DNA of 64,000 nt from Actinoallomurus purpureus (GTDB lineage: Bacteria > Actinomycetota > Actinomycetes > Streptosporangiales > Streptosporangiaceae). Both the position numbers and the translations under genes were made by a program. A model generated the notes under the pieces. It was given only the letters and a program-made list of their open reading frames with translations, was not told the origin of the DNA and searched no databases. The stretch spans positions 124,001-188,000 of the forward strand of contig NZ_JAMXMY010000006.1 in the NCBI RefSeq assembly GCF_024055795.1, written 5' to 3'. Below are positions 6,591-19,551 of the stretch, piece by piece. Numbering within the stretch: the stretch's first letter is position 1; every line of letters starts with the position of its first letter.

Positions 6591-6905
6591 TCACTCCAGG
6601 CGCCAGGCGACGGGGAGGCCCTTGGCGGCGCCCTCGCCGGAATAGTCGTGGACGACGTCGAGGTAGCCGGCCATGCGCGCCTGCCAGGCGACGTTGACCG
6701 GCAGGTCCTCCAGGGCGGCCAGCAGTGCGGCGTAGTCGTCGCAGTCGATGACGTGGAACAGGTCGAGCCCGCTGCGCCAGATCGTCCACTCGTGCGCGCC
6801 GGCGTCCTTGATCGCCTGGACGAGGTCCGAAGGCACCTCCCGGTGCGCCTTCTCGTACTCCTCCTCCTGGCCGGCCCTGAGCCGGGTGTGCAGCGCGACG
6901 CGCAT
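6591..6905 (-). CDS. rhaM: L-rhamnose mutarotase family protein
   Basis: A 104-residue RhaM-type mutarotase that interconverts the alpha and beta anomers of a 6-deoxy sugar so that it can enter catabolism. The N-terminal MRVALHTRLRAGQEEEYEKAH and the EWTIWRSGLDLFHVID core are family features. ATG at 6905 is preferred because GAGGAG lies five bases before it; a GTG at 6911 overlapping the regulator's stop is the alternative. It sits downstream of, and is probably co-transcribed with, the FadR-type regulator. In this fucose locus the natural sugar is likely L-fucose. Confidence 0.85.
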   Translation of the reverse strand: MRVALHTRLRAGQEEEYEKAHREVPSDLVQAIKDAGAHEWTIWRSGLDLFHVIDCDDYAALLAALEDLPVNVAWQARMAGYLDVVHDYSGEGAAKGLPVAWRLE

Positions 6906-6907
6906 CC

Positions 6908-7645
6908 TCACTCCTCATCGTCCTTCTGGCGGCGGGCCCACTCCTCGACCGCGCCGATGTGCACGGCGGTGGCGATGCGGGCGCCGTCGGGGTCGCGTTC
7001 GATCAGGGAACGGTAGATCTCGTCGTGCTCGCGGAAGGTGCGGGGGAAGACACCCTCCTCCCGGTATCCGCGCCAGACGCGGGCGCGGAAGGTGCGGCTG
7101 TTCAGCCCGCCGAGGATCGCGGCGAGCACCGGGTTGCCGGCGGCCTCGGTGATGATGCGATGGAATTCCAGGTCGTGCCCGACGATCTCCTCGGCGGTCG
7201 TGCCGCGCTCCATCGCCGTCATCTCGGCGCGCAGGCGGATGAGTCCCTCTTCGTCGATGCGCGCCGCCGCCGCGGCGGCGGCCGCGGGCTCCAGGATCTT
7301 GCGCACCTGGACGAGGTGCAGCAGGGTGTCGCCCCGCGAGATCTCCGCGACGACGCCGAAGGTGTCCAGCAGGTCGCCCGGTTTCAGCTGGGTGACGTAG
7401 ATGCCGGCGCCGTGCCGGGCCTCGAGGACTCCCATGACGGTGAGGGCGCGGATCGCCTCGCGCATCGAGCTTCGGGACAGCCCCAGGTCGGCGGCGAGAT
7501 CGCGCTCGGTCGGTAGGCGCTGGCCGGGCGCGAGCTCACCCATGGCGATCCTGGTCTTGATCTCGTCGATCGCCCGCTGGGTGACGGTGGTCCTGGCACC
7601 CGTGTCGTCCGGCACGCGCGCTCCCTCCTCCGACTGCGAACTCAT
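6908..7645 (-). CDS. FadR/GntR-family regulator of the fucose locus
   Basis: A 245-residue GntR/FCD regulator. The winged helix-turn-helix occupies about residues 20-85 (GQRLPTERDLAADLGLSR, REAIRALTVMGVLEARHG) and the all-helical FCD effector domain about 100-230, with metal-binding type Asp and His residues (GHDLEFHRIITEAAGNP). ATG at 7645 is used; a TTG at 7681 would add 12 residues. It is divergent from the catabolic genes and two matching operator-like dyads lie between them. It is expected to repress the locus and to be released by a sugar acid or keto-acid intermediate. Confidence 0.87.
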   Translation of the reverse strand: MSSQSEEGARVPDDTGARTTVTQRAIDEIKTRIAMGELAPGQRLPTERDLAADLGLSRSSMREAIRALTVMGVLEARHGAGIYVTQLKPGDLLDTFGVVAEISRGDTLLHLVQVRKILEPAAAAAAAARIDEEGLIRLRAEMTAMERGTTAEEIVGHDLEFHRIITEAAGNPVLAAILGGLNSRTFRARVWRGYREEGVFPRTFREHDEIYRSLIERDPDGARIATAVHIGAVEEWARRQKDDEE

Positions 7646-7661
7646 CTTGCCGGACGGTAAG

Positions 7662-7673
7662 TGGTCGTACCAA
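7662..7673. promoter_or_regulatory. Operator-like dyad 1 (FadR-type)
   Basis: TGGTCGTACCAA contains the perfect dyad TGGT-N3-ACCA. It lies 17 bases before the regulator's ATG at 7645, a position suited to autoregulation. It matches ten of twelve bases of the site at 7767, and both resemble the TGGTCNGACCA sites bound by FadR-family regulators. Confidence 0.6.
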
Positions 7674-7766
7674 TTTCTCAAAGTAACAAGTCTGTCACGG
7701 GGTATTGCCAGAAGGTTGCCGTGTAGTGGTCTTATGTCCCCGTAAGAGGTCCGATGAATCGCTGAG

Positions 7767-7778
7767 AGGTCGGACCAA
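7767..7778. promoter_or_regulatory. Operator-like dyad 2 (FadR-type)
   Basis: AGGTCGGACCAA contains the dyad GGTC-G-GACC and lies 24 bases before the GTG of the first catabolic gene. It is 105 bp, about ten helical turns, from dyad 1, which would put two bound dimers on the same face of the DNA. Confidence 0.6.
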
Positions 7779-7802
7779 CCGACGAGCAGGGGGTACGACT
7801 AC

Positions 7803-8642
7803 GTGAAGCTGCTGCGTGTCGGAGCGGAAGGCGCCGAACGGCCCGCGGTCCTGGCGGAGGACGGCTCGCTCCTCGATCTGTCCGGCCTGACCCGCGACGT
7901 CGACGGCGACTTCCTCGCCACGGGCCTGGACCGCGCCAGGTCGGCGTACGCGGCAGGCGAGCTGCCGCCCATCCAGAACACCAAGCGGATCGGCGCACCG
8001 GTGGCCCGGCCCGGCAAGGTCGTGTGCATCGGCCTGAACTACCGGGACCACGCGGAGGAGACGGGCGCCGAGCTCCCGGCGGAGCCAATCATCTTCATGA
8101 AGGCGTCGAACACCGTCGTCGGCCCGAACGACGACGTGCTCATCCCCCGGGGCAGCGAGAAGACCGACTATGAGGTCGAGCTCGCCGTCGTCCTGGGCGG
8201 CCGGGCCCGCTACCTGGAGTCCCCCGAGGACGCCCGTGCGCTCATCGCGGGGTACGCGATCAGCAACGACGTCTCCGAGCGGGAGTTCCAGCTGGAGCGC
8301 GGCGGCACGTGGGACAAGGGCAAGTCCTGTGAGACCTTCAACCCCCTCGGGCCGCACCTGGTGACCGCCGACGAGATCGAGGATCCGCAGAACCTCGGCC
8401 TGCGCCTCTGGGTCAACGGCGAGCTCCGCCAGGACGGCGACACGAAGAACATGATCTTCCCGGTCGACCATCTGATCTGGTACCTCAGCCAGTTCATGGT
8501 CCTGGACCCCGGTGACGTCATCAACACCGGCACCCCGGCCGGCGTCGCGCTCGGCAGCCCGGGTATCTCCTTCCTTCGTCAGGGTGACATCGTGGAACTC
8601 GAGATCGACGGGCTCGGGCGGCAACGGCAGAGGCTCGCATGA
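7803..8642 (+). CDS. 2,4-diketo-3-deoxy-L-fuconate hydrolase (FAH family)
   Basis: A 279-residue fumarylacetoacetate-hydrolase-fold enzyme. The metal ligands are visible as Glu124 and Glu126 in [11 protein letters not shown] and Asp156 in [11 protein letters not shown]. The closest known relatives cleave 2,4-diketo-3-deoxy-L-fuconate to pyruvate and L-lactate, the last step of the non-phosphorylating fucose route; this agrees with the adjacent fuconate dehydratase and the downstream lactate genes. The GTG at 7803 follows AGCAGGGGG. It overlaps the next gene by four bases (ATGA), so it heads the operon. Confidence 0.87.
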
Positions 8643-9922
8643 AGGTCATCGCACTCGACGCCTACGACATCCGGTTCCCGACCTCGCGGCAGCTGGACGG
8701 CTCGGACGCCATGAACCCGGATCCGGACTACTCGGCCGCGTACGCCGTGCTCCGCACGGACGACGGTGCCGAGGGCCACGGGTTCACGTTCACGATCGGG
8801 CGCGGCACGGAGGTGTGCGTCGCGGCGATCAACGCGTACGCACCCCTCGTCGTCGGCCTCGACATCGACCTGTCCGACCTCGGCGGGTTCGCGCGTCGGC
8901 TGGTCCACGACTCGCAGCTGCGCTGGCTCGGCCCGGAGAAGGGCGCGGTCCACATGGCCGCCGCCGCCGTCATCAACGCGGCGTTCGACCTCGCCGGGCG
9001 CGTCGCCGGCAAACCCGTCTGGCGGCTGCTGGCGGACCTGACGCCCGAGCAGATCGTCGACCTGGCCGACTGGAGGTACCTCACCGACGCCCTCCGTCCG
9101 GAGGAGGCCGTCGACCTGCTGACGGCGGCCCGCGCCGGGCGGGAGGAACGCGAGGCCGCACTACTGGCCACCGGCTACCCCGCCTACACGACGACCCCCG
9201 GCTGGCTCGGTTACACCGACGAGAAACTGGTGACCCTGGCCCGGGAGGCCGTCGAGGAGGGTTTCACCCAGATCAAGCTGAAGGTCGGCGGCGACCTGGC
9301 GGACGACGTGCGCCGCCTGGAGCTGGCCCGCCAGACGGTCGGACCCGACATCCGCATCGCGATCGACGCGAACCAGCGGTGGGACGTCGGCCAGGCGATC
9401 GAGTGGGTCGAGGCGCTCAAGCCGTACGACCCGTGGTGGATCGAGGAGCCGACCAGCCCCGACGACATTCTCGGCCACGCCGCCGTGCGCAGGTCCGTCC
9501 GGCCCGTCCGGGTGGCGACCGGCGAGCACGTGGCGAACCGTGTGATCTTCAAGCAGATGCTGCAGGCCGAGGCGCTCGACGTGCTGCAGATCGACGCCTG
9601 CCGCGTCGCGGGCGTGCCGGAGAACGTCGCGATCCTCCTGCTCGCCGCGAAGTACGGCGTGCCGGTCTGTCCCCACGCCGGAGGCGTCGGGCTCTGCGAG
9701 GTCGTGCAGCACCTGTCGATGTTCGACTACCTGGCGGTCAGCGGGAGCACCGAGAACCGCGTGATCGAGTACGTCGACCACCTGCACGAACATTTCACCG
9801 ACCCGGTGCGGGTCCGCGACGGCCACTACCTCGCGCCGACGGCCCCCGGCATGTCCGCACAGATCAAGGCCGAGAGCCTGCTCGAATACGCCTACCCCGA
9901 CGGCGCCGCCTGGAGGTCTTGA
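8639..9922 (+). CDS. fucD: L-fuconate dehydratase (enolase superfamily)
   Basis: A 427-residue enolase-superfamily dehydratase that converts L-fuconate to 2-keto-3-deoxy-L-fuconate. The KxK base motif is Lys213/Lys215 (IKLKVGG), the Mg ligands are Asp243, Glu269 and Glu296, and the general acid is His346 (CPHAGGVGL). The spacing equals that of characterised Xanthomonas FucD as I recall it, and the N-terminal [20 protein letters not shown] stretch is nearly identical to that enzyme. This gene fixes the substrate of the locus. It overlaps the hydrolase by four bases and is one base from the next dehydrogenase. Confidence 0.95.
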
Positions 9923-9923
9923 C

Positions 9924-10670
9924 GTGGAGTTCAGCGGTATCAGGGCCATCGTCACCGGAGGGGCCTCCGGCATCGGGCTCGCCACGGCGCGCCTGATGAC
10001 CGAGCGAGGCGCCACGGTGAGCTGCCTCGACCTGTCCGCCCCGCCCGAGCCCCTGCACGGTGTGCGGACGGACGTACGGGACGACGCGTCGGTCCGCGCG
10101 GCGGTCTCGGCCGCGGTGGACCACCTCGGCGGCCTGGACGTGCTCGTCAACAACGCCGGGATCGGCGCGCAGGGCACGGTCGAGGACAACGAAGACGACG
10201 AGTGGCGCAACGTCTTCGACGTCAACGTGTTCGGCATGGTGCGGGTGAGCCGGGCCGCCCTGCCGCACCTGCGCCGATCCGAGCACGCCGCGATCGTCAA
10301 CACCTGTTCGATCGCGGCCACCGCCGGGCTGCCGCAGCGCGCGCTGTACTCGGCGACCAAAGGTGCCGTTCAGTCGCTCACTCTGGCGATGGCGGCGGAT
10401 CACCTGCGCGACGGGGTCCGGGTGACATGCGTCAACCCGGGCACCGCCGACACGCCCTGGGTCGGCCGGCTGCTCGCCGCGACCGACGATCCGGAGGCGG
10501 AGCGGGCCGCACTGGCGGCCCGCCAGCCGAGCGGGCGGCTGGTCAGCGCCGAGGAGGTCGCTGTGGCGATCGCCTACCTGGCCAGCCCGCTGGCGTCGGC
10601 GACGACAGGAACGGCGCTGGCGGTCGATGGGGGCATGGCCGGCCTGCGACTTCGCCCAGAGAAATTCTGA
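9924..10670 (+). CDS. 2-keto-3-deoxy-L-fuconate dehydrogenase (SDR)
   Basis: A 248-residue classical SDR with TGGASGIG at 11-18, NNAG at 76-79, Ser129, Tyr142 and Lys146. It lies between fuconate dehydratase and the importer, and SDRs in this position oxidise the C4 hydroxyl of 2-keto-3-deoxy-L-fuconate with NAD to give the 2,4-diketo acid for the FAH-family hydrolase. The GTG at 9924 is one base after the dehydratase stop and follows TGGAGG. Function is inferred from the locus; the family alone is not substrate-specific. Confidence 0.87.
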   Translation: MEFSGIRAIVTGGASGIGLATARLMTERGATVSCLDLSAPPEPLHGVRTDVRDDASVRAAVSAAVDHLGGLDVLVNNAGIGAQGTVEDNEDDEWRNVFDVNVFGMVRVSRAALPHLRRSEHAAIVNTCSIAATAGLPQRALYSATKGAVQSLTLAMAADHLRDGVRVTCVNPGTADTPWVGRLLAATDDPEAERAALAARQPSGRLVSAEEVAVAIAYLASPLASATTGTALAVDGGMAGLRLRPEKF

Positions 10671-10679
10671 GAGGACGCG

Positions 10680-11738
10680 ATGAAGCGAAAGATGCTCGCG
10701 GCCGGTGCCGCGTTCGCGGCGGCCGCGGTGCTGCTGGCCGGCTGCGACAACAGCGAGGGCAGCAGCGGATCGTCCGGCGGTGGCAGCGCTGTCGTCGGGG
10801 TCGACTACCCCCGGTCGGACACCGACTTCTGGAACTCCTACATCAAGTACGTGCCCCAGTACGGCAAGCAGTTCGGCCTCGACCTGAAGACGACCAACTC
10901 CGAGAACGACGTCTCCAAGCTCGCCGCCAACGTGCAGACGCTCATCGGCCAGGGCGTCAAGGGCGTCGTGCTGGCGCCGCAGGACACCGCCGCGGTCGCG
11001 CCGACGCTCGGCCAGCTCAAGACGAAGAAGATCCCGGCCGTCACCGTCGACACCCGCCCCGACACCGGCGACGTGTACATGGTCGTCCGCGCCGACAACC
11101 GCGCGTACGGCGAGAAGGCCTGCAAGTTCCTCGGGGACACCCTGAAGGGCAAGGGCAAGGTCGCGATGCTCGAGGGCGACCTGGCCTCGATCAACGGCCG
11201 CGACCGTACTGAGGCCTTCAACCAGTGCATGGCCCAGAACTACAAGGGCATCAAGGTCATCGGCCTGCCCACCGAGTGGAAGGGTGACGTCGGCGCGAAC
11301 AAGCTGCAGACCACGCTGGCCGCCAACCCCGACCTCGGCGGCATCTACATGCAGGCCGGCGGCGCGTTCCTCGCCCCGACGCTGAACGTGCTCAAGCAGA
11401 AGGGCCTGATCTTCCCGCCGGGCAACCCGAAGCACATCGCCATCGTGTCCAATGACGGCATCCCCGAGGAGATGAAGGCGATCGGCGCCGGGCAGATCGA
11501 CGCCACCGTGTCGCAACCCGCCGACCTGTACGCCAAGTACGCCCTGTACTACATCAAGGCGGCCATCGACGGGAAGAAGTTCGCTCCGGGCAAGACCGAC
11601 CACGACTCGACGATCGTCGCGCCGCGGCCCGGTCTGCTCGAGGACCAGCTGCCCGCGCCGCTGGTCACCAAGGACGGGAGCTACCCGGGTTCGCTGAAGT
11701 CGACCGACCCGCAGCTTTGGGGCAACCAAGTCAAATGA
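10680..11738 (+). CDS. Sugar ABC transporter substrate-binding lipoprotein
   Basis: A 352-residue extracellular binding protein of the periplasmic-binding type 1 (ribose/galactose-like) group. Residues 1-22 form a lipoprotein signal with the lipobox LLAGC, and a Ser/Gly linker follows. The two-lobed domain contains ENDVSKLAANVQTLIGQGVK and NDGIPEEMKAIGAGQIDATV, usual in sugar-binding members. It is nine bases after the dehydrogenase and overlaps the ATPase gene by four bases. It probably captures L-fucose at the cell surface. Confidence 0.9.
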   Translation: MKRKMLAAGAAFAAAAVLLAGCDNSEGSSGSSGGGSAVVGVDYPRSDTDFWNSYIKYVPQYGKQFGLDLKTTNSENDVSKLAANVQTLIGQGVKGVVLAPQDTAAVAPTLGQLKTKKIPAVTVDTRPDTGDVYMVVRADNRAYGEKACKFLGDTLKGKGKVAMLEGDLASINGRDRTEAFNQCMAQNYKGIKVIGLPTEWKGDVGANKLQTTLAANPDLGGIYMQAGGAFLAPTLNVLKQKGLIFPPGNPKHIAIVSNDGIPEEMKAIGAGQIDATVSQPADLYAKYALYYIKAAIDGKKFAPGKTDHDSTIVAPRPGLLEDQLPAPLVTKDGSYPGSLKSTDPQLWGNQVK

Positions 11739-13252
11739 GCGTTCCAGCCAGTGCCGCGGCCGGCCCCCGGCCGGTCGCGGCGGCCCACAGGATCGATAAA
11801 CGGTTCGGCGTGACCGTCGCGCTCGACGACGTCTCCCTGACCGTCCGGGACGGGGACGTGCACGCCCTCGTCGGCCGGAACGGCGCCGGGAAGTCGACGC
11901 TCGTGTCGGTGCTCACCGGCCTCGTCGCGCCGGACTCCGGCTCAGTGGAGTTCGACGGCCGGTCCGCGCCCCCGCTCGCGGACCGCGAGGCGTGGCGGCA
12001 GCGGGTCGCCTGCGTCTACCAGAAGTCGACGGTCATCCCCTCGCTGTCGGTGGCCGAGAACCTCTTCCTGAACCGCCAGGGACGCGGCTTGATCTCGTGG
12101 GGGGCGCTGCGTCGCCGTGCCCGCGAGCTGCTGGAGACGTGGGAGGTCGACGTCGACGTCCAGGCGCCGGCCGCACGCCTCAGCGTCGAGCAACGCCAGC
12201 TGGTGGAGATCGCGCGGGCGCTGTCGCACGGCTCGCGGTTCATCATCCTGGACGAGCCGACCGCCCAGCTCGACGGCCAGGCGATCGAGCGGCTGTTCGA
12301 CCGGATGCGGTCGCTGCGTGAGTCCGGGGTGACCTTCCTGTTCATCAGCCACCACCTCGACGAGGTGTACGAGGTCTGCGACACCGTCACCGTGATGCGC
12401 GATGCCCGGCACATCATGACGTCCCCCGTCCCGGAGCTGGGCAAGGCCGACCTCATCACCGCGATGACCGGCGAGGCGACCGGCCTGATCGATCTCGGCG
12501 CGGACCGGCCCACGCCGGCGGCCGGCGAGGAACGCGCGCTCACCGTCACCGGGCTCGGCGTTCCCGGCGTCTTCGAGGACGTGTCCCTGTCCGTGGCGCC
12601 CGGCGAGATCGTCGGGCTGGCCGGGGCCGTCGGCTCCGGGAAGATGGCGGTCGGCGAGTCGATCGTCGGCCTCCGCCGGGCCGGGCAGGGCACCGTGAAG
12701 ATCGGCGGTGTGACGCCCCGGCCGGGCAGCGTGCCGGCCGCGCTGCGGGTCGGCATCGGGTTCGTCCCGCAGGACCGGCATCGCGAGGGTCTGGTGCCGG
12801 GCCTGTCCATCGCCGAGAACGCCACGCTCACCGTGCCAGAGCGGCTCGGCCGCTTCGGGTTCGTCGGCTCCCGGCGACGCGACGAACTCGGCGTCAAGGC
12901 CATCGGCGACCTGGACATCAAGGCGGCCGGACCCGAGCAGCCCGTGTCCGCGCTGTCCGGCGGCAACCAGCAGAAGGTCGTCATGGCCCGCGCCCTCGCC
13001 AACGAGCCCAAGGTGCTGGTGCTCATGCAGCCCACCGCCGGGGTCGACGTCAAGGCCAAGGAGACGCTCCTCGGCACGGCCGCCGCGGCGGCCGTCGGCG
13101 GTGCCGGGGTACTCATGATCTCGGACGACCTCGACGACCTGCGTCCCTGCGACCGGGTCATCGTCCTGTTCAAGGGCGCCGTCGTCGCCGAGATGGCGAA
13201 GGGCTGGGACGACAACGAACTGATCGCCGCGATGGAGGGTATCGGTGACTGA
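11735..13252 (+). CDS. Sugar ABC transporter ATPase, two domains, second one degenerate
   Basis: A 505-residue double ATPase of the RbsA/MglA type, the normal length. Domain 1 is intact: Walker A GRNGAGKST at 47-55, an LSVEQRQ signature and Walker B with LDEPTAQLD. In domain 2 the P-loop reads GAVGSGKM (297-304), with Met in place of Ser/Thr, although the signature LSGGNQQK is kept. The Walker B reads LVLMQPTAGVD, so the Asp and the catalytic Glu are Met431 and Gln432. Domain 2 should bind poorly and not hydrolyse ATP. ATG at 11735 overlaps the upstream stop. Fuels fucose uptake with the neighbouring permease. Confidence 0.92.
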   Translation: MSVPASAAAGPRPVAAAHRIDKRFGVTVALDDVSLTVRDGDVHALVGRNGAGKSTLVSVLTGLVAPDSGSVEFDGRSAPPLADREAWRQRVACVYQKSTVIPSLSVAENLFLNRQGRGLISWGALRRRARELLETWEVDVDVQAPAARLSVEQRQLVEIARALSHGSRFIILDEPTAQLDGQAIERLFDRMRSLRESGVTFLFISHHLDEVYEVCDTVTVMRDARHIMTSPVPELGKADLITAMTGEATGLIDLGADRPTPAAGEERALTVTGLGVPGVFEDVSLSVAPGEIVGLAGAVGSGKMAVGESIVGLRRAGQGTVKIGGVTPRPGSVPAALRVGIGFVPQDRHREGLVPGLSIAENATLTVPERLGRFGFVGSRRRDELGVKAIGDLDIKAAGPEQPVSALSGGNQQKVVMARALANEPKVLVLMQPTAGVDVKAKETLLGTAAAAAVGGAGVLMISDDLDDLRPCDRVIVLFKGAVVAEMAKGWDDNELIAAMEGIGD

Positions 13253-14258
13253 GACACAGACGGCGTTGGCCGCGCCGGCCCGGGGCCGGATCGCCGCGCC
13301 ACGGCTCGCGCGCCTGCGCGACCTGGCGCTGGTGCCGGCGATCATCGTGATCGGGATCGTCGGATATCTGGTCAATCCGGTGTTCCTGCACTGGGACAAC
13401 CTGGTCAACGTGCTGCAGCAGCAGTCGGAGATCTCGCTGCTCGTGCTCGCCGAGGCGCTGGTGCTGATCTGCGGCCGGATGGACCTGTCGCTGGAGTCGA
13501 CGTTCGGCCTCGCACCGGGCGTCGCCGCCTGGCTGGTGCTCGCCCCCGGGATCACGCACGGCGTCCACTGGTTGTCCGGCGCCTGGTCGATCCCGGTGAC
13601 GCTCGCCGTCGGCCTCGTCATCGGCTGGGTCAACGGCCTGCTGATCGTCCGGTTCCGGCTCAACGGCTTCATCGTCACCCTGGGCATGCTGATCGTGCTG
13701 CGCGGCCTGCTGACCGGCATCAGCGGCGGCAAGACCTTCTTCAACCTGCCGTCCTCGATGATCTACCTGGGGAACGCCGTCTGGCTGGGGCTGCCGGCGT
13801 CGATCTGGATCTGCCTGATCCTGTACGCTGCCGCGATCGCGGTGACCGGATACACCCGCTTCGGACGGTCGCTGTACGCCGTCGGCGGCAACCCCGACGC
13901 CGCCCGCGCCGCCGGCATCCGCGTCGACCGCGTGCTGTGGACGACGCTCGTCCTGGCGAGCGCGCTGGCCGCCCTCGGCGGCCTGCTGCTCACCGGCCGC
14001 CTCGCGTCCGTGGCCGCGAGCCAGGGCAACGGCGCGATCTTCACCGTGTTCGCGGCGGCGGTCATCGGCGGCGTCTCGCTCAACGGCGGCAAGGGCACGA
14101 TCTTCGGGGCCTTCACCGGCATCCTGCTGCTCTACATGATCCAGAACGTCCTCACGCTGGCGGGCGTCCCGGCGCAGTGGATCGGCGCGCTCAACGGCGG
14201 CATCATCCTCGTCGCCCTGATCATCAGCCGTATCACGTCGGGCCAGGCACAGGAGTAG
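13245..14258 (+). CDS. Sugar ABC transporter permease
   Basis: A 337-residue membrane protein of the BPD_transp_2 (RbsC-like) family with about nine hydrophobic helices. The GFIVTLGMLIVLRGLLTGIS region and the GGNPDAARAAGI loop, which contacts the ATPase, are family markers. The N-terminal 25 residues are a cytoplasmic tail. The GTG at 13245 overlaps the ATPase gene by eight bases. Only one permease gene is present, so it should act as a homodimer with the double ATPase. Confidence 0.92.
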   Translation: MTETQTALAAPARGRIAAPRLARLRDLALVPAIIVIGIVGYLVNPVFLHWDNLVNVLQQQSEISLLVLAEALVLICGRMDLSLESTFGLAPGVAAWLVLAPGITHGVHWLSGAWSIPVTLAVGLVIGWVNGLLIVRFRLNGFIVTLGMLIVLRGLLTGISGGKTFFNLPSSMIYLGNAVWLGLPASIWICLILYAAAIAVTGYTRFGRSLYAVGGNPDAARAAGIRVDRVLWTTLVLASALAALGGLLLTGRLASVAASQGNGAIFTVFAAAVIGGVSLNGGKGTIFGAFTGILLLYMIQNVLTLAGVPAQWIGALNGGIILVALIISRITSGQAQE

Positions 14259-14260
14259 CG

Positions 14261-15178
14261 ATGGAGCACCGCAGACTCGGATCCTCACCGGTCGAGGTGA
14301 CAACGCTGTCATTCGGTGGTGCGGCCATCGGCGGGCTCTACGCCCCGGTGTCCGACGCCGACGTGACGGCGGCCGTCCGCCGCGCGCAGGAACGCGGCAT
14401 CGGGTACTTCGACACCGCGCCGCACTACGGTGCCGGGCGCAGCGAACGCCGCCTCGGCGCCGCCCTGTCCGGCGAGTACGTCCTGTCGACCAAGGTCGGA
14501 CGGCTCCTCGTCCCCCTGGAGCCCGGGGAGCCGCCCGAGCCGGAAGGGTTCACCGACCCGCCGCCGTACAAGCGGGTCTGGGACTGGAGCGCCGACGGCA
14601 TCCGCCGGTCCCTGGAGGAGTCGCTGCGACGCCTCGGCGTCGACCGCGTCGACGTCGTTTACCTGCACGACCCCGACGACCACGAGGGCGAGGTCTACGC
14701 GACGGCGTACCCGGCGCTGGCCGCCCTCCGCGACGAGGGCGTGGTCGGCGCGATCGGCGCCGGGATGAACCAGACCGCCATGCTCACCCGGTTCGTCGAG
14801 CGCCTCGACCTGGACGTCGTGCTGTGCGCGGGGCGGTACACCCTTCTCGACCGGTCGGCCGAGAAGGACCTGCTGCCCGCGTGCGAACGGCGTGGCACGT
14901 CCGTCGTCATCGGTGGCGCCTACAACTCCGGCCTGCTGGCCGGCGGCACGACGTACGACTACGCGCCCGCCCCGCCGGAGATGCTGGAGCGCGTCGCCGG
15001 CCTGGAGCGGGTGTGCGCCGAACACGGCGTGCCGCTGCGCGCTGCCGCGCTGCGGTTCCCCCTCCGGCATCCGGCCGTGGCGAGCGTCCTCGTCGGCTGC
15101 CGGAACACGGCCGAGGTCGACGACAACGCGGAGCTGTTCGAGATGGAGATCCCCGAGACGCTGTGGGCGGAACTGTGA
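14261..15178 (+). CDS. L-fucose dehydrogenase (aldo/keto reductase)
   Basis: A 305-residue aldo/keto reductase with the catalytic tetrad Asp51, Tyr56 (FDTAPHYG), Lys78 (LSTKVG) and His136 (YLHDPDD). Relatives include D-threo-aldose 1-dehydrogenase, which oxidises L-fucose at C1 to L-fucono-1,5-lactone. That is the first step needed here and no other gene in the locus supplies it. It starts three bases after the permease and nine bases before the lactonase. Assigned from family plus locus. Confidence 0.87.
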   Translation: MEHRRLGSSPVEVTTLSFGGAAIGGLYAPVSDADVTAAVRRAQERGIGYFDTAPHYGAGRSERRLGAALSGEYVLSTKVGRLLVPLEPGEPPEPEGFTDPPPYKRVWDWSADGIRRSLEESLRRLGVDRVDVVYLHDPDDHEGEVYATAYPALAALRDEGVVGAIGAGMNQTAMLTRFVERLDLDVVLCAGRYTLLDRSAEKDLLPACERRGTSVVIGGAYNSGLLAGGTTYDYAPAPPEMLERVAGLERVCAEHGVPLRAAALRFPLRHPAVASVLVGCRNTAEVDDNAELFEMEIPETLWAEL

Positions 15179-15187
15179 GGAGGACGC

Positions 15188-16057
15188 GTGAGTGAGCTCG
15201 GGCCGGTGGACGCACACCACCACCTGTGGGACACGGCCGTCCGGGACTACCCGTGGATGGACGGCCCCTGGGCCGATCCCCTCCGAGGCCGGTTCGACGC
15301 CGCCCGCTACACCGATCTGACCAGGCCGTACGGTGTGCGCGACTCGATCGTCGTCCAGGCGCTGCAGGACGTCGGCGAGACGTACGACCTGCTGTTCGCC
15401 GGGGACAATCCGGTCGAGACCGAGTACGGCGACGAACCGGGCCCGATCGTGGGCGTGGTCGGCTGGGTGGATCTGACCGCGTCCGACGTCGCGGACCGGA
15501 TGGCCGAGGTACGCGAGAGCCCGTCCGGTCACCTGCTCGTCGGGGTCCGGCACGCGGCGCAGGACGAACCGGACCCCGAGTGGCTGCTGCGGCAGGACGT
15601 CCAGCGCGGCGTCCAGGCCGTCGGGGCCGCCGGCCTGGTGTACGACGTGTTGGTCCGGCCGCCGCAGGCCGCGGCGGCCCTGGCGCTCATGCGCCGGCTG
15701 CCGGAGGTCTCCTTCGTCCTCGACCACGCCGGCAAGCCCGACATCGCCGGCGGCGTGTGGGAGCCGTGGGCGACCTGGATCACCTCGCTGGCGGCGCTGC
15801 CCAACGTGACCGTCAAGCTGTCCGGCCTGGTCACCGAGGCCGCCCCCGACTGGAAACCGGACGACATCCTCCCGTACGCTCGCCACGTGCTGCACTCCTT
15901 CGGCGCCGACCGCGTCATGTACGGCTCCGACTGGCCGGTCTGCACGCTCGCCGCGTCCTACGAACAGGTCCTCGATCTGGCCCGCGAGGCGGTGCCGCCG
16001 GGCGACCGGGACGCCGTCTTCGGCGGAACCGCCCGACGCGCGTACGGGCTGGGTTGA
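15188..16057 (+). CDS. L-fuconolactonase (amidohydrolase family)
   Basis: A 289-residue amidohydrolase-2 TIM barrel with DAHHHLWD at 8-15 and metal or active-site residues in LDHAGKPD and MYGSDWPVC. Lactonases of this family (cog3618 type) open L-fucono-1,5-lactone to L-fuconate, feeding the dehydratase. The GTG at 15188 follows GAGGAGGAC. Spacing to neighbours is under ten bases on both sides, so it belongs to the same operon. Confidence 0.88.
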   Translation: MSELGPVDAHHHLWDTAVRDYPWMDGPWADPLRGRFDAARYTDLTRPYGVRDSIVVQALQDVGETYDLLFAGDNPVETEYGDEPGPIVGVVGWVDLTASDVADRMAEVRESPSGHLLVGVRHAAQDEPDPEWLLRQDVQRGVQAVGAAGLVYDVLVRPPQAAAALALMRRLPEVSFVLDHAGKPDIAGGVWEPWATWITSLAALPNVTVKLSGLVTEAAPDWKPDDILPYARHVLHSFGADRVMYGSDWPVCTLAASYEQVLDLAREAVPPGDRDAVFGGTARRAYGLG

Positions 16058-16061
16058 GACC

Positions 16062-16766
16062 ATGCGGGTCGCCCTCTTCGTCACCTGCGTGAACGACACG
16101 CTCTTCCCCGGCACCGGGCGGGCGACCGTCCGGCTGCTGGAGCGGCTCGGCTGCACGGTCGAGTTCCCGCTCGAGCAGACCTGCTGCGGTCAGATGCACT
16201 TCAACACCGGCTACCGCGACGACGCCCGGCCGCTCGCCCGCCGCTTCACCGCGGTGTTCGACGGCTACGACGCGGTCGTGGTGCCGTCCGGGTCGTGCGC
16301 GGCGATGGTCCGCGAGTGGTACCCCTCGCTCGGCGTCGAGCCGCCGGCCGGGGTCTACGAGCTGTCGGAGTTCCTGGTCGACGTCCTGAAGGTCACCGAC
16401 GTCGGCGCGTACTTCCCGCACACGGTGACCTACCACCCGACCTGCCATTCGCTCCGGTCGCTGAAGGTCGGCTCGAGGCCGTTCGATCTGCTGTCCCAGG
16501 TGCGCGGGCTCACCCTCGTGCCCCTGGGCGGCGCCGACGAGTGCTGCGGGTTCGGCGGCACGTTCTCGCTGAAGAACTCGGCCGTGTCGGCCGCGATGTG
16601 CGCCGACAAGGTGCGGGGCGTGCTCGACACCGGCGCCGAGGTGCTGTGCGCCGCCGACAACTCCTGCCTCATGCACATCGGCGGATCCCTGGCCCGCCAG
16701 CGCACCGGCGTCCGCGTCGTGCACCTGGCCGAGATCCTCGCCTCGACGGAGGAGGATCCAGCATGA
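16062..16766 (+). CDS. lutA: L-lactate utilisation Fe-S subunit LutA
   Basis: A 234-residue protein with two cysteine-rich CCG domains (QTCCGQMHFNTGYR and DECCGFGGTFSLK), as in LutA/YkgE. Together with LutB and LutC it oxidises L-lactate to pyruvate. It lies four bases after the lactonase, so it is part of the fucose transcription unit. That makes sense, because the diketo route releases L-lactate. Its stop overlaps the ATG of a 23-codon ORF that leads into lutB. Confidence 0.92.
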   Translation: MRVALFVTCVNDTLFPGTGRATVRLLERLGCTVEFPLEQTCCGQMHFNTGYRDDARPLARRFTAVFDGYDAVVVPSGSCAAMVREWYPSLGVEPPAGVYELSEFLVDVLKVTDVGAYFPHTVTYHPTCHSLRSLKVGSRPFDLLSQVRGLTLVPLGGADECCGFGGTFSLKNSAVSAAMCADKVRGVLDTGAEVLCAADNSCLMHIGGSLARQRTGVRVVHLAEILASTEEDPA

Positions 16767-16834
16767 GCGAGCGGAGCGAGCGAATCATGAGCATGGCGCG
16801 CCCGGTCACTCCTCCGACGAAGGAGGCCGCATGA
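16763..16834 (+). CDS. 23-residue mini-ORF bridging lutA and lutB
   Basis: An in-frame ORF beginning MSERSERIMSMARPV and ending in TGA at 16832-16834. Its ATG overlaps the lutA stop and its stop overlaps the lutB ATG, both as ATGA, and GGAGGAGG lies before it. The first codons come from a GAGCGAGCGGAGCGAGCG repeat that is also seen near actinobacterial start codons elsewhere. It could be a translated leader that couples lutA to lutB, or a fortuitous repeat insertion. A second site, AAGGAGG, also precedes lutB directly. Confidence 0.35.
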   Translation: MSERSERIMSMARPVTPPTKEAA

Positions 16835-18249
16835 GCGGCACGTTCGTCGGGATGCCGGCGTTTCCGGAGGCGTCGTCGCGGGCGGTCGACGACGCGCAGC
16901 TGCGCTACAACCTGCGCAAGGCGACCCACACGATCCGCGCCAGGCGCGCGGCCGTCGTCGGCGAGCAGCCCGACTGGGCCGAGCTGCGCGCCGCGGGTGC
17001 GGCGATCAAGGACCGTACGCTCCGGCACCTCGACGTCTACCTCGAACGACTGGAGTCGGCCGTCACGGCGGCCGGCGGGCACGTGCACTGGGCCGAGGAC
17101 GCCGCCGAGGCCAACCGGATCATCGTCGACCTGGTGAAGGCGACCGGCGAGACCGAGGTCGTCAAGGTCAAGTCGATGGCCACGCAGGAGATCGAGCTGA
17201 ACTCCGCGCTGGCCGCCGCCGGCATCCGCGCGTACGAGACCGACCTCGCCGAGCTGATCGTGCAGCTCGGCGACGATCTGCCCTCCCACATCCTCGTCCC
17301 GGCCATCCACCGCAACCGCGCGGAGATCCGGGAGATCTTCACCGGCCGCATGGCCGCCTGGGGACGTCCCGCGCCGGAGAACCTCGAGGACGATCCGCGC
17401 GCGCTCGCCGAGGCCGCCCGCCTGCACCTGCGCGAGCGCTTCCTGTCCGCCAAGGTCGGCATCTCCGGCGCCAACTTCGCGGTCGCCGAGACCGGCACCC
17501 TCGTCGTCCTGGAGTCCGAGGGCAACGGCCGGATGTGCCTGACCCTTCCCGAGACGCTCATCTCGGTGGTCGGCATCGAGAAGATCGTGCCGACCTGGCG
17601 GGACCTCGAGGTCTTCATGCAACTGCTGCCCCGCTCGTCGACGGGGGAGCGGATGAACCCGTACACCTCGACGTGGACCGGGGCGACCGAGGGCCAGGAC
17701 TTCCACCTCGTCCTGGTCGACAACGGGCGCACCTCGGTGCTCGCCGACCGGGTCGGCCGCCAGGCGCTGCGCTGCATCCGCTGCTCCGCCTGCCTGAACG
17801 TCTGTCCCGTCTACGAGCGGGCGGGCGGCCACGCGTACGGCTCGGTGTACCCCGGGCCGATCGGCGCGATCCTCACCCCGCAGCTGCACGGCATCGCCGG
17901 GCCGCTGGAGGAGTCGCTGCCGTACGCCTCCACGCTCTGCGGCGCGTGCTACGAGGTCTGCCCGGTCGCCATCGACATCCCCGAGGTGCTCCTCGACCTG
18001 CGCGCCAAGGTGGTCACGAAGGGGCACCGCGGTGAGCGCCTCGCGATGGGCGCCGCTCGCCGTGTGCTGGACAACCCGAAGTGGCTCGCGATGGCGCAGC
18101 GTTCCGCCGGCCGCCTGCGCCGCTGGGCCCCGCGCCGCCTGCCCGGTCCGCTGTCGGCCTGGTCCGACACCCGTGAGGTGCCCGTACCGCCCCGCGAGTC
18201 CTTCCGCGACTGGTGGGTGCGGCGGCCGAACCAGGAGGGAGATCGATGA
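16831..18249 (+). CDS. lutB: L-lactate utilisation Fe-S subunit LutB
   Basis: A 472-residue LutB/YkgF. The N-terminal two thirds is the LUD-type domain (AVAETGTLVVLESEGNGRM). Two four-cysteine ferredoxin clusters follow, CIRCSACLNVCPVY near 313 and CGACYEVCPV near 370. It carries electrons from L-lactate oxidation to the respiratory chain, probably at the membrane face. Preceded by AAGGAGG; overlaps lutC by four bases. Confidence 0.94.
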   Translation: MSGTFVGMPAFPEASSRAVDDAQLRYNLRKATHTIRARRAAVVGEQPDWAELRAAGAAIKDRTLRHLDVYLERLESAVTAAGGHVHWAEDAAEANRIIVDLVKATGETEVVKVKSMATQEIELNSALAAAGIRAYETDLAELIVQLGDDLPSHILVPAIHRNRAEIREIFTGRMAAWGRPAPENLEDDPRALAEAARLHLRERFLSAKVGISGANFAVAETGTLVVLESEGNGRMCLTLPETLISVVGIEKIVPTWRDLEVFMQLLPRSSTGERMNPYTSTWTGATEGQDFHLVLVDNGRTSVLADRVGRQALRCIRCSACLNVCPVYERAGGHAYGSVYPGPIGAILTPQLHGIAGPLEESLPYASTLCGACYEVCPVAIDIPEVLLDLRAKVVTKGHRGERLAMGAARRVLDNPKWLAMAQRSAGRLRRWAPRRLPGPLSAWSDTREVPVPPRESFRDWWVRRPNQEGDR

Positions 18250-18872
18250 GCTCCCGTGACCGCATCCTGGCCCGCGTACGGTCGGCGCTGGCCGACGTGC
18301 CCCGTACGGAACGGCCGGAGGACGTCGAGGTGCCCCGCGACTACGACCGGACCCGCTCCGGCCCGGACGTCGTCGAACTCCTGGTCGACCGCCTCGTCGA
18401 CTACAAGGCGGTCGTCCACGAGGCCACCGACGTCGCGGCGGCGGTCGCGGACGCCCTGCGCGGGCGCGCGGCCCGCCGGGTGGCCGCACCGGTGGGCATC
18501 CCCGCGGAGTGGTTCGGCGACGCGGAGGCGATCCGCGACGACCCGGCCCTGTCCGCCGCTGACCTCGACGCCCTGGACGGCGTGGTGACCGGCTGCGCGG
18601 TCGCCATCGCCGAGACCGGCACCATCGTCCTGGACGGCGGCGACGACCAGGGCCGCCGTGCGCTCACCCTGATCCCCGACTACCATCTGTGCGTCGTACG
18701 GCGGGACCAGATCGTCCGCACGGTCCCCGAGGCCCTCGAACGCCTCGACCCGTCCCGCCCCCAGACCTGGATCAGCGGCCCGTCGGCCACCAGCGACATC
18801 GAGCTGAACCGGGTGGAGGGCGTCCACGGCCCCCGCACGTTGGAGGTCCTCATCGTGCGCGCTGTCAGCTGA
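18246..18872 (+). CDS. lutC: L-lactate utilisation protein LutC
   Basis: A 208-residue LUD-domain protein. The ligand-binding core AVAIAETGTIVLDGGDDQGR and the C-terminal SGPSATSDIELNRVEGVHGP are diagnostic of LutC/YkgG. The ATG at 18246 overlaps the lutB stop (ATGA). Third subunit of the L-lactate oxidation complex and the last gene of the fucose/lactate operon; no clear terminator is seen directly after it. Confidence 0.94.
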   Translation: MSSRDRILARVRSALADVPRTERPEDVEVPRDYDRTRSGPDVVELLVDRLVDYKAVVHEATDVAAAVADALRGRAARRVAAPVGIPAEWFGDAEAIRDDPALSAADLDALDGVVTGCAVAIAETGTIVLDGGDDQGRRALTLIPDYHLCVVRRDQIVRTVPEALERLDPSRPQTWISGPSATSDIELNRVEGVHGPRTLEVLIVRAVS

Positions 18873-19551
18873 TCATTGGCGATCGGTGCGGTAAGAGAGG
18901 CTGTCGCCTAACTCCGAACCAGGCCGCTCAGGCGGGCCAGTGTGCCCTGGGCTGTCACGCTGGGAGGGATTTAAAAACCCTGGCGAAGGCGTCCTCGACC
19001 GGGTGCGGGCATCGGTCGGCCGACGCGGACGTGTGTACCCGGCGGAGGGCGGCGCGCAGAACGCTCGGGAACAAACCGGCAGCGGCCCGGTTCGCCCGGG
19101 TTTGCCGTTGGTGAGGTGGGCCGCGCGTGGCCTTCGCCGAGCGTTCTGCCCGCCCTCGGCTCAGCTCGTCGGCCGCCCGTTCCAGCACGGTGACCGGCCG
19201 ACCCACCCGGCGGAGCCCGACCGACGCCGCGAGCCCGCCGACCCCTCCGGATGTCGCCCCGGCCTCGCCACGGCCGCCACCGTGCAGAACTCTCGGAGAA
19301 CACCCCTACGGCGAGCCGAATTGCCCCGCCGCGTCCCCTTAACGGGATGAACCGCACGGTCGTTCGCCGAGCTTTCAGCACACCGAACCGCGCCGGCGGC
19401 AGCCCGATTCGCAGCCTTTGCGCGCCAGCTCGCTGCATCGCCATGGCCTTGAGCAATCAAGATCGCGAGTAGTGCGACAGCCTCAAGAACAGCACCGCTC
19501 ACCAAGGATCACTGGTCATCGCTCTCTTGGCAGTGGCGCCGCACGGTCGGA

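Follow-up and report, generated by a model that had tools for sequence, protein, structure and literature searches.

The window analysed here, a stretch of 64,000 nucleotides from the 9.25 Mb genome of Actinoallomurus purpureus (contig C49), carries at positions 6591-18872 a block of 13 open genes, which probably constitutes one locus for the breakdown of L-fucose with the lactate oxidation genes lutABC built into its end. The minus strand encodes a RhaM-type mutarotase and a GntR/FCD regulator, and the remaining 11 genes lie on the plus strand in the order FAH hydrolase, fuconate dehydratase (FucD), short-chain dehydrogenase/reductase (SDR), three genes of an ATP-binding cassette (ABC) importer, aldo/keto reductase (AKR), lactonase, lutA, lutB and lutC. 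From the coordinates of the open reading frames between 7803 and 18872, the FAH and FucD genes overlap by 4 bases, FucD is separated from the SDR gene by 1 base, and the SDR gene from that of the substrate-binding protein by 9. The substrate-binding protein and ATPase genes overlap by 22 bases if the ATPase is read from its first TTG and by 4 if it is read from the ATG at 11735, and the ATPase and permease genes overlap by 8. The gaps are 2 bases between permease and AKR, 9 between AKR and lactonase, 4 between lactonase and lutA, and 64 between lutA and lutB, and lutB and lutC overlap by 4. A first-pass annotation, made from the letters alone, had listed these genes from mutarotase to lutABC; every one is present with an open frame, and its coordinates and spacing are correct, with the two values just given for the overlap within the importer.

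The enzyme families point, step by step, to the non-phosphorylating diketo route (Route III), which converts L-fucose to pyruvate and L-lactate (PMC11199699; papers cited by PMC number are each represented here by a part of their text). FucD gave 622 bits against the L-fuconate dehydratase of X. campestris and 82.5 bits against rhamnonate dehydratase, and its first match beyond the FucD-like group was at 181 bits, which places it within the fuconate dehydratase subfamily. The closest solved chain for the FAH hydrolase, 8gsr (E 3.9e-73), is an L-2,4-diketo-3-deoxyrhamnonate hydrolase; His83 and Glu86 are present, and these residue numbers equal those given for the Herbaspirillum hydrolase in PMC6336799, an agreement in numbering with no pairwise alignment behind it. 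The best solved match of the SDR is 4dqx, which is placed near the type 2 L-2-keto-3-deoxyfuconate 4-dehydrogenase (L-KDFDH) in PMC11199699, and R139 and R200 align by eye with the two arginines named there for 4dqx. At the family level, the locus would combine a C4-oxidising SDR with an FAH hydrolase, not with an aldolase, as is characteristic of the diketo route. For L-fucose dehydrogenase and lactonase, an AKR and an amidohydrolase are present, the specific models being below cut-off or without match, and the solved match of the lactonase is 4dlf. The mutarotase reached only 24.1 of 99.6 bits for the rhamnose mutarotase equivalog. L-fucose as the substrate and the individual activities are predicted from these family matches, which agree at every step with the route to pyruvate and L-lactate named in the first-pass annotation.

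LutA contains two CCG domains (Pfam), LutB contains a LUD domain, LutB_C and two Fe-S cysteine motifs at 315 and 370, and LutC belongs to the LUD family (Pfam LUD_dom, 76.8 bits), the domain content expected of LutABC; no NCBIfam model matched LutC. The spacer between lutA and lutB (16767-16830) carries a GAGCGAGCGGAGCGAGCG element, and an 18-mer pattern of the spacer has 4 copies in the genome and 1 in the control. This spacer was considered as a promoter and set aside: across six relatives of the genus it measures between -7 and 129 bp, and the longer ones carry GAGCGAGCGGAGCGAG-like repeats.

Conservation was followed in the 8 genomes of the genus, own included, that belong to a family sample of 200 genomes. 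The 13-gene order is found on one contig in six of the eight (own included), with some 8.2 kb between FucD and LutB, both on the same strand, and G534 has the same order over two contigs, each ending in the AKR gene. In G534 about 1.4 kb of extra sequence lies at the ATPase-permease junction (L171, G534:C449, 1429-2853), and the mutarotase match (9236-9337) ends after 34 residues; these features may be an insertion, decay or an assembly fault. The gap between lactonase and lutA is 4 bp in 7/7 loci, namely the window and 6/6 relatives, and the comparison of gene order in related genomes, which had been proposed as a check, was therefore favourable. The eighth genome, G461, keeps the whole fucose block (FucD 92 percent identical) and has no lutABC at that place. 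Its sequence tracks that of G525 as far as the stop codon of the lactonase gene and then skips to the final 27 bases of lutC; GAGGTC is shared by the two edges, and G461 adjoins G525 in the FAH tree (support 99/97) and, less surely, in the regulator tree (93/71). The remnant of lutC and the tree position of G461 therefore indicate a loss from the joint state, not an ancestral absence.

Another lutABC in G461 adjoins a sugar ABC transporter, and its neighbours resemble those of the second lutABC of G525 (L175), a locus that also encodes RhaS, a RhaM-type mutarotase, RhaI, a RhaEW-type aldolase/dehydrogenase and rhamnulokinase. The gene content of L175 identifies it as a rhamnose locus that has lutABC, within the same genus. 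Among the matches listed, a second LutB is found in 6/8 genus genomes (its sequence was fetched for G525 and G498), and the fucose-linked one is still kept. In L173, L174, L178-L181, L183 and L175, a sugar ABC transporter is encoded close to lutABC, on the other strand.

In a class sample of 394 genomes, FucD was detected in 98 and LutB in 156, with both in 46. At least four of these 46, own included, have FucD and LutB within 10 kb of each other, while about 0.16 would be expected by a rough random-placement estimate with an assumed mean genome size and an assumed 1.3 pairs in each genome. LutB was found in 174 and FucD in 104 of the 200 family genomes, mostly apart. The linkage of fucose and lut genes is thus uncommon, yet well above chance.

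Outside the genus, lutABC is located within the fucose operon, between the AKR and RhaM genes, in Streptomyces sp. NRRL F-6131 (L102), Actinocorallia populi (L109) and G216 (L137); L109 and G404/L176 have identical LutB, were taken as the same organism and were counted once. The order is SDR-AKR-lutABC in L184 (G394), and lutABC stands after FucD and after the importer in L139 and L140 (G313 and G126). In L177 (G448) it is on the other strand, with 4.7 kb between it and the fucose genes, and this locus was left out of the operon counts. A shorter arrangement, with FAH directly 5' of lutABC, was seen in L127, L194-L198 and L212, with a divergent regulator in all but L212. By coordinates it is present in at least 10 of the 200 family genomes, L212 (G439) bringing the total to at least 11, and 10 of these 11 genomes had no FucD match at E 1e-60.

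In the LutB trees, the genus of the window, the mid-operon group (L102, L109/L176 and L137) and the pair L139/L140 are placed apart from one another, and yet another clade contains six of the seven FAH-lut loci together with lut loci that lack FAH. At least three LutB lineages besides that of the window therefore show lutABC joined with fucose or FAH genes, and lutABC is joined to rhamnose loci as well. Since these lineages lie in different places of the tree, the joining of fucose and lut genes appears to have occurred several times, the exact count being sensitive to weak forks. A common origin of the window operon and the GntR/FAH-lutABC mini-operons was attractive, since both ends match, and was rejected: the LutBs of the window genus group with other LutBs of the family (95/90), outside the clade of six of the seven FAH-lut loci (98/95), and the FAH tree did not join the window hydrolase with those of the mini-operons.

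Two TGGTNNNACCA-like sites were found in the divergent region, one with an exact core (7661-7673) and the other with one core mismatch (7766-7778). The listed TTG start of the regulator (7681) is probably too early, and the ATG at 7645 would put the first site outside the gene. Exact TGGTNNNACCA was found within 350 bp upstream in 7/8 genus loci, in 24/24 Streptomyces-type fucose loci (L137 among them) and in 4/5 GntR-lut loci without adjacent fucose genes. It was found in 0/36 fucose loci whose GntR regulator is of another kind, and its frequency in random windows drawn from the loci examined was 0 to 3.3 percent. Four named GntR loci (L041, L055, L058 and L088) were left out of this count. 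The second site was recovered by the same scan in 6/8 genus loci, and no strong match was found 5' of lutA. In the regulator tree, which is a second build with fewer rows (the first had very long rows), the window regulator clusters with regulators of fucose loci, the Streptomyces-type ones included (96/82); those of lut-only loci make up a separate clade (100/99), beside the fucose regulators of G180 and G223 (99/92). From the distribution of exact TGGTNNNACCA across loci, we infer that the operator is tied to this regulator clade, not to every member of it. Most fucose loci of the same regulator clade, those of G180 and G223 excepted, have the operator in common, as in a FucR-type regulon, and the window regulator does not cluster with those of lut-only loci, as one of LldR/LutR type would. 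One regulator with two candidate operators, as read in the first-pass annotation, fits these results.

Table 1. Genes and candidate sites of the locus, in positions of the window
Feature	Position	Strand	Evidence
Mutarotase, RhaM/FucM-type, probably L-fucose mutarotase	6591..6911	-	Pfam rhaM 70.6 bits, cut-off 23.4
GntR/FCD (FadR-type) regulator	6908..7681	-	Pfam GntR and FCD; clusters with fucose-locus regulators
Candidate operator 1, core TGGTCGTACCA	7661..7673	.	core exact; exact in 7/8 genus loci
Candidate operator 2, 37 bases 5' of FAH start	7766..7778	.	one core mismatch; 6/8 genus loci
Predicted FAH-family 2,4-diketo-3-deoxy-L-fuconate hydrolase (giving pyruvate + L-lactate)	7803..8642	+	8gsr, E 3.9e-73
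L-fuconate dehydratase (FucD)	8639..9922	+	X. campestris 2hne/1yey, 622 bits
SDR, predicted 2-keto-3-deoxy-L-fuconate 4-dehydrogenase, nearest type 2	9924..10670	+	best solved chain 4dqx
Sugar ABC importer, substrate-binding protein	10680..11738	+	Pfam Peripla_BP_4
Sugar ABC importer, ATPase; likely start 11735	11717..13252	+	Pfam ABC_tran, two stretches
Sugar ABC importer, permease	13245..14258	+	Pfam BPD_transp_2
Aldo/keto reductase, predicted L-fucose 1-dehydrogenase	14261..15178	+	Pfam Aldo_ket_red
Amidohydrolase, predicted L-fucono-1,5-lactonase	15188..16057	+	NCBIfam FuconLaconase 186.6 bits (cut-off 400); 4dlf
lutA	16062..16766	+	Pfam CCG, two stretches
lutA-lutB spacer with GAGCGAGCGGAGCGAGCG repeat; length variable in genus	16767..16830	+	-7 to 129 bp, six relatives
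lutB, iron-sulfur L-lactate oxidation protein	16831..18249	+	TIGR00273 440.8 bits; LUD and LutB_C
lutC	18246..18872	+	Pfam LUD_dom 76.8 bits

We consider it probable that the locus is one divergent regulon for L-fucose breakdown by the diketo route, in which LutABC consumes the L-lactate formed. The ABC importer would take up L-fucose and the mutarotase would supply the right anomer; AKR and lactonase would then produce L-fuconate, FucD would dehydrate it, the SDR would oxidise the product at C4, and the FAH hydrolase would split the resulting diketo acid into pyruvate and L-lactate. LutABC, whose genes begin 4 bp past the lactonase gene, would convert the L-lactate into a second pyruvate and pass the electrons on. 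The GntR/FCD protein would act as a repressor on the TGGTNNNACCA sites between its own gene and the FAH gene, and would be released by an acid derived from the pathway. Content, order, spacing, conservation, motif and recurrence in several lineages are direct observations, and substrate, activities, repression, inducer and co-transcription are predicted from them. The first-pass annotation had already proposed that lutABC is part of the fucose locus and consumes its L-lactate, and this proposal gains support from the gene order and the 4-bp gap in the genus, from the other LutB lineages, and from the regulator clade and its operator at fucose-only, lut-only and joint loci.

It might be thought that lutABC is a general lactate operon that merely stands behind the fucose genes, with an internal promoter of its own, for example in the lactonase gene, and that its position tells little. 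The window's LutB is the sole strong LutB match in its own genome, and the mostly separate occurrence of LutB and FucD in the family, with their linkage uncommon overall, would also agree with this idea; the constant 4-bp gap in all seven loci, the retention of this copy in genus genomes that have a second LutB among the matches listed, the recurrence of the partnership in other LutB lineages, mid-operon arrangements included, and the lack of a strong operator match 5' of lutA make it unlikely. An equally improbable alternative is that the same enzymes serve D-arabinose, L-galactose or L-rhamnose. AKR-type L-fucose dehydrogenases accept D-arabinose and L-galactose as well (PMC6336799), 5/5 solved chains among the AKR matches listed are L-galactose dehydrogenases, and the mutarotase is of the RhaM family. 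Against this, FucD scores much higher with the fuconate than with the rhamnonate dehydratase, as given above, and there would be no need for LutABC with D-arabinose, whose keto-deoxy acid leads to glycolate (PMC6336799), or with L-galactose, which by the chemistry of the route should lead to glycerate.

The nature of the inducer allows a further alternative, in which the regulator senses L-lactate, like LldR/LutR, so that the end product and not a fucose intermediate induces the operon; we regard this as rather doubtful. Closely related regulators are encoded divergently from lutABC or FAH-lutABC at L123, L124, L126, L127 and L133, in genomes that gave no FucD match, and the GntR-lut loci mostly share the operator (4/5). 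These placements beside lut genes point to lactate or another common acid as the ligand, whereas the Streptomyces fucose loci without lutABC, which have this regulator and operator, point to a fucose intermediate. The separate tree positions of fucose-locus and lut regulators also speak against lactate sensing, and forcing the window and lut regulators together was disfavoured (p-AU 0.023, for a group picked after seeing an earlier tree).

Several observations weigh against a fucose regulon with LutABC as its last part. Three enzyme scores are below their cut-offs, namely 320.9 of 500 bits for the FAH hydrolase with the matching NCBIfam model, 186.6 bits for the lactonase with NCBIfam FuconLaconase (cut-off 400), and 440.8 bits for LutB with TIGR00273, 4 bits short of 444.8. 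The linkage is uncommon, lutABC being present at 2/80 named FucD loci (within 10 kb on each side, some ended by the contig), and G461, having lost lutABC and kept the rest, indicates that the pathway can do without it. Exact TGGTNNNACCA was found in only 2/6 FAH-lut loci and in 0/2 fucose loci of G180 and G223 (L145 and L146). Because members of the same regulator clade also adjoin lutABC in genomes that gave no FucD match, the ligand is not necessarily specific to fucose. A scan of 7600-19200 for promoters and terminators, covering one promoter type, found none, while 0.3 promoters and 2.2 terminators were expected by chance; because of this low expectation and the single promoter type, the empty scan has little bearing on co-transcription. 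The genome also has three strong homologues of FMN-dependent 2-hydroxyacid dehydrogenases (C8:29451-30476, C33:350785-351786 and C3:116784-117764), none of which reaches the curated cut-off for a lactate enzyme or for MftD; they might oxidise lactate. Control of the C3 homologue by the same regulator was considered, a one-mismatch site being present about 0.6 kb upstream, and was rejected. The site was treated as chance because it falls within the coding sequence predicted for the preceding gene and because the operator pattern, with 2 mismatches allowed in the whole genome, is rarer (29) than its reversed control (151).

Bacillus-type LutABC operons with LutR have the same order lutA, lutB, lutC; in the window, by contrast, the lut genes follow genes for sugar breakdown and are accompanied by a regulator of the fucose-locus clade. 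The Route III pathway of Xanthomonas, Herbaspirillum and others has the same set of mutarotase, dehydrogenase, lactonase, fuconate dehydratase, 4-dehydrogenase and hydrolase (PMC11199699); as described there it stops at lactate, whereas lutABC follows in the same gene block of the window, and the window's dehydrogenase is nearer to the type 2 enzymes. In the RhaR regulons of some Actinomycetales and Rhodobacterales, lldD and lldEFG are included and probably take the breakdown of rhamnose as far as pyruvate (PMC3870299), and the likeness is that lactate dehydrogenase genes were recruited into the regulon of a 6-deoxyhexose. In a genome of the Chthoniobacteraceae, lutABC shares an operon with a rhamnulokinase gene, and LutABC has been proposed there to act on lactate from L-rhamnose and L-fucose (PMC11596606); that system, from Verrucomicrobiota, differs in using a phosphorylating route with a metabolosome, with no fuconate route in the part of the paper drawn on. 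The idea of lactate oxidation within a sugar locus is therefore already in print for rhamnose, in the parts of PMC3870299 and PMC11596606 used here. Our literature search, which covered few subscription journals, found no published report of lutABC in a diketo-route fucose locus, and the diketo fucose case, its repeated assembly, the recorded loss and the clade-specific operator appear to be new.

If the proposed function is true, the carbon balance would be closed: a single gene block would turn each L-fucose into two pyruvates, and no lactate would be lost. Since the lactate genes are in different positions and belong to different LutB lineages, these loci provide a small natural test of the recruitment of a waste-product module, and the deletion in G461 offers a ready comparison strain. 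The operator and the regulator clade give a concrete prediction for the control of fucose use in Streptomyces and relatives.

A second diketo-type sugar locus is present in the same genome (L193, G000:C11:152000-171000), with an SDR 63% and an FAH hydrolase 65% identical to those of the window. It has GlcF (8260-9318) and GlcD (9319-11082) in place of LutABC and a GntR/FCD regulator at 6657-7364, and across the divergent gap lie an enolase-family dehydratase, an ABC importer, an AKR and a lactonase. Its product may be glycolate or D-lactate.

A broader and tentative reading, which we consider less likely than not, is that Route III sugar loci of the family repeatedly and independently gain an oxidase matching their own 2-hydroxy-acid product, LutABC for the L-lactate of fucose and GlcD-GlcF for the glycolate or D-lactate of L193, and that the fucose regulator and operator were passed to stand-alone lut operons. 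If this were true, the built-in oxidase would predict the sugar used by unstudied loci. The idea that GlcDF generally accompanies a second FAH locus was rejected: among 20 further FAH loci, several of them on short contigs, only L215 has a close pair, and L218, L220 and L216 gave distant or partial GlcDF matches.

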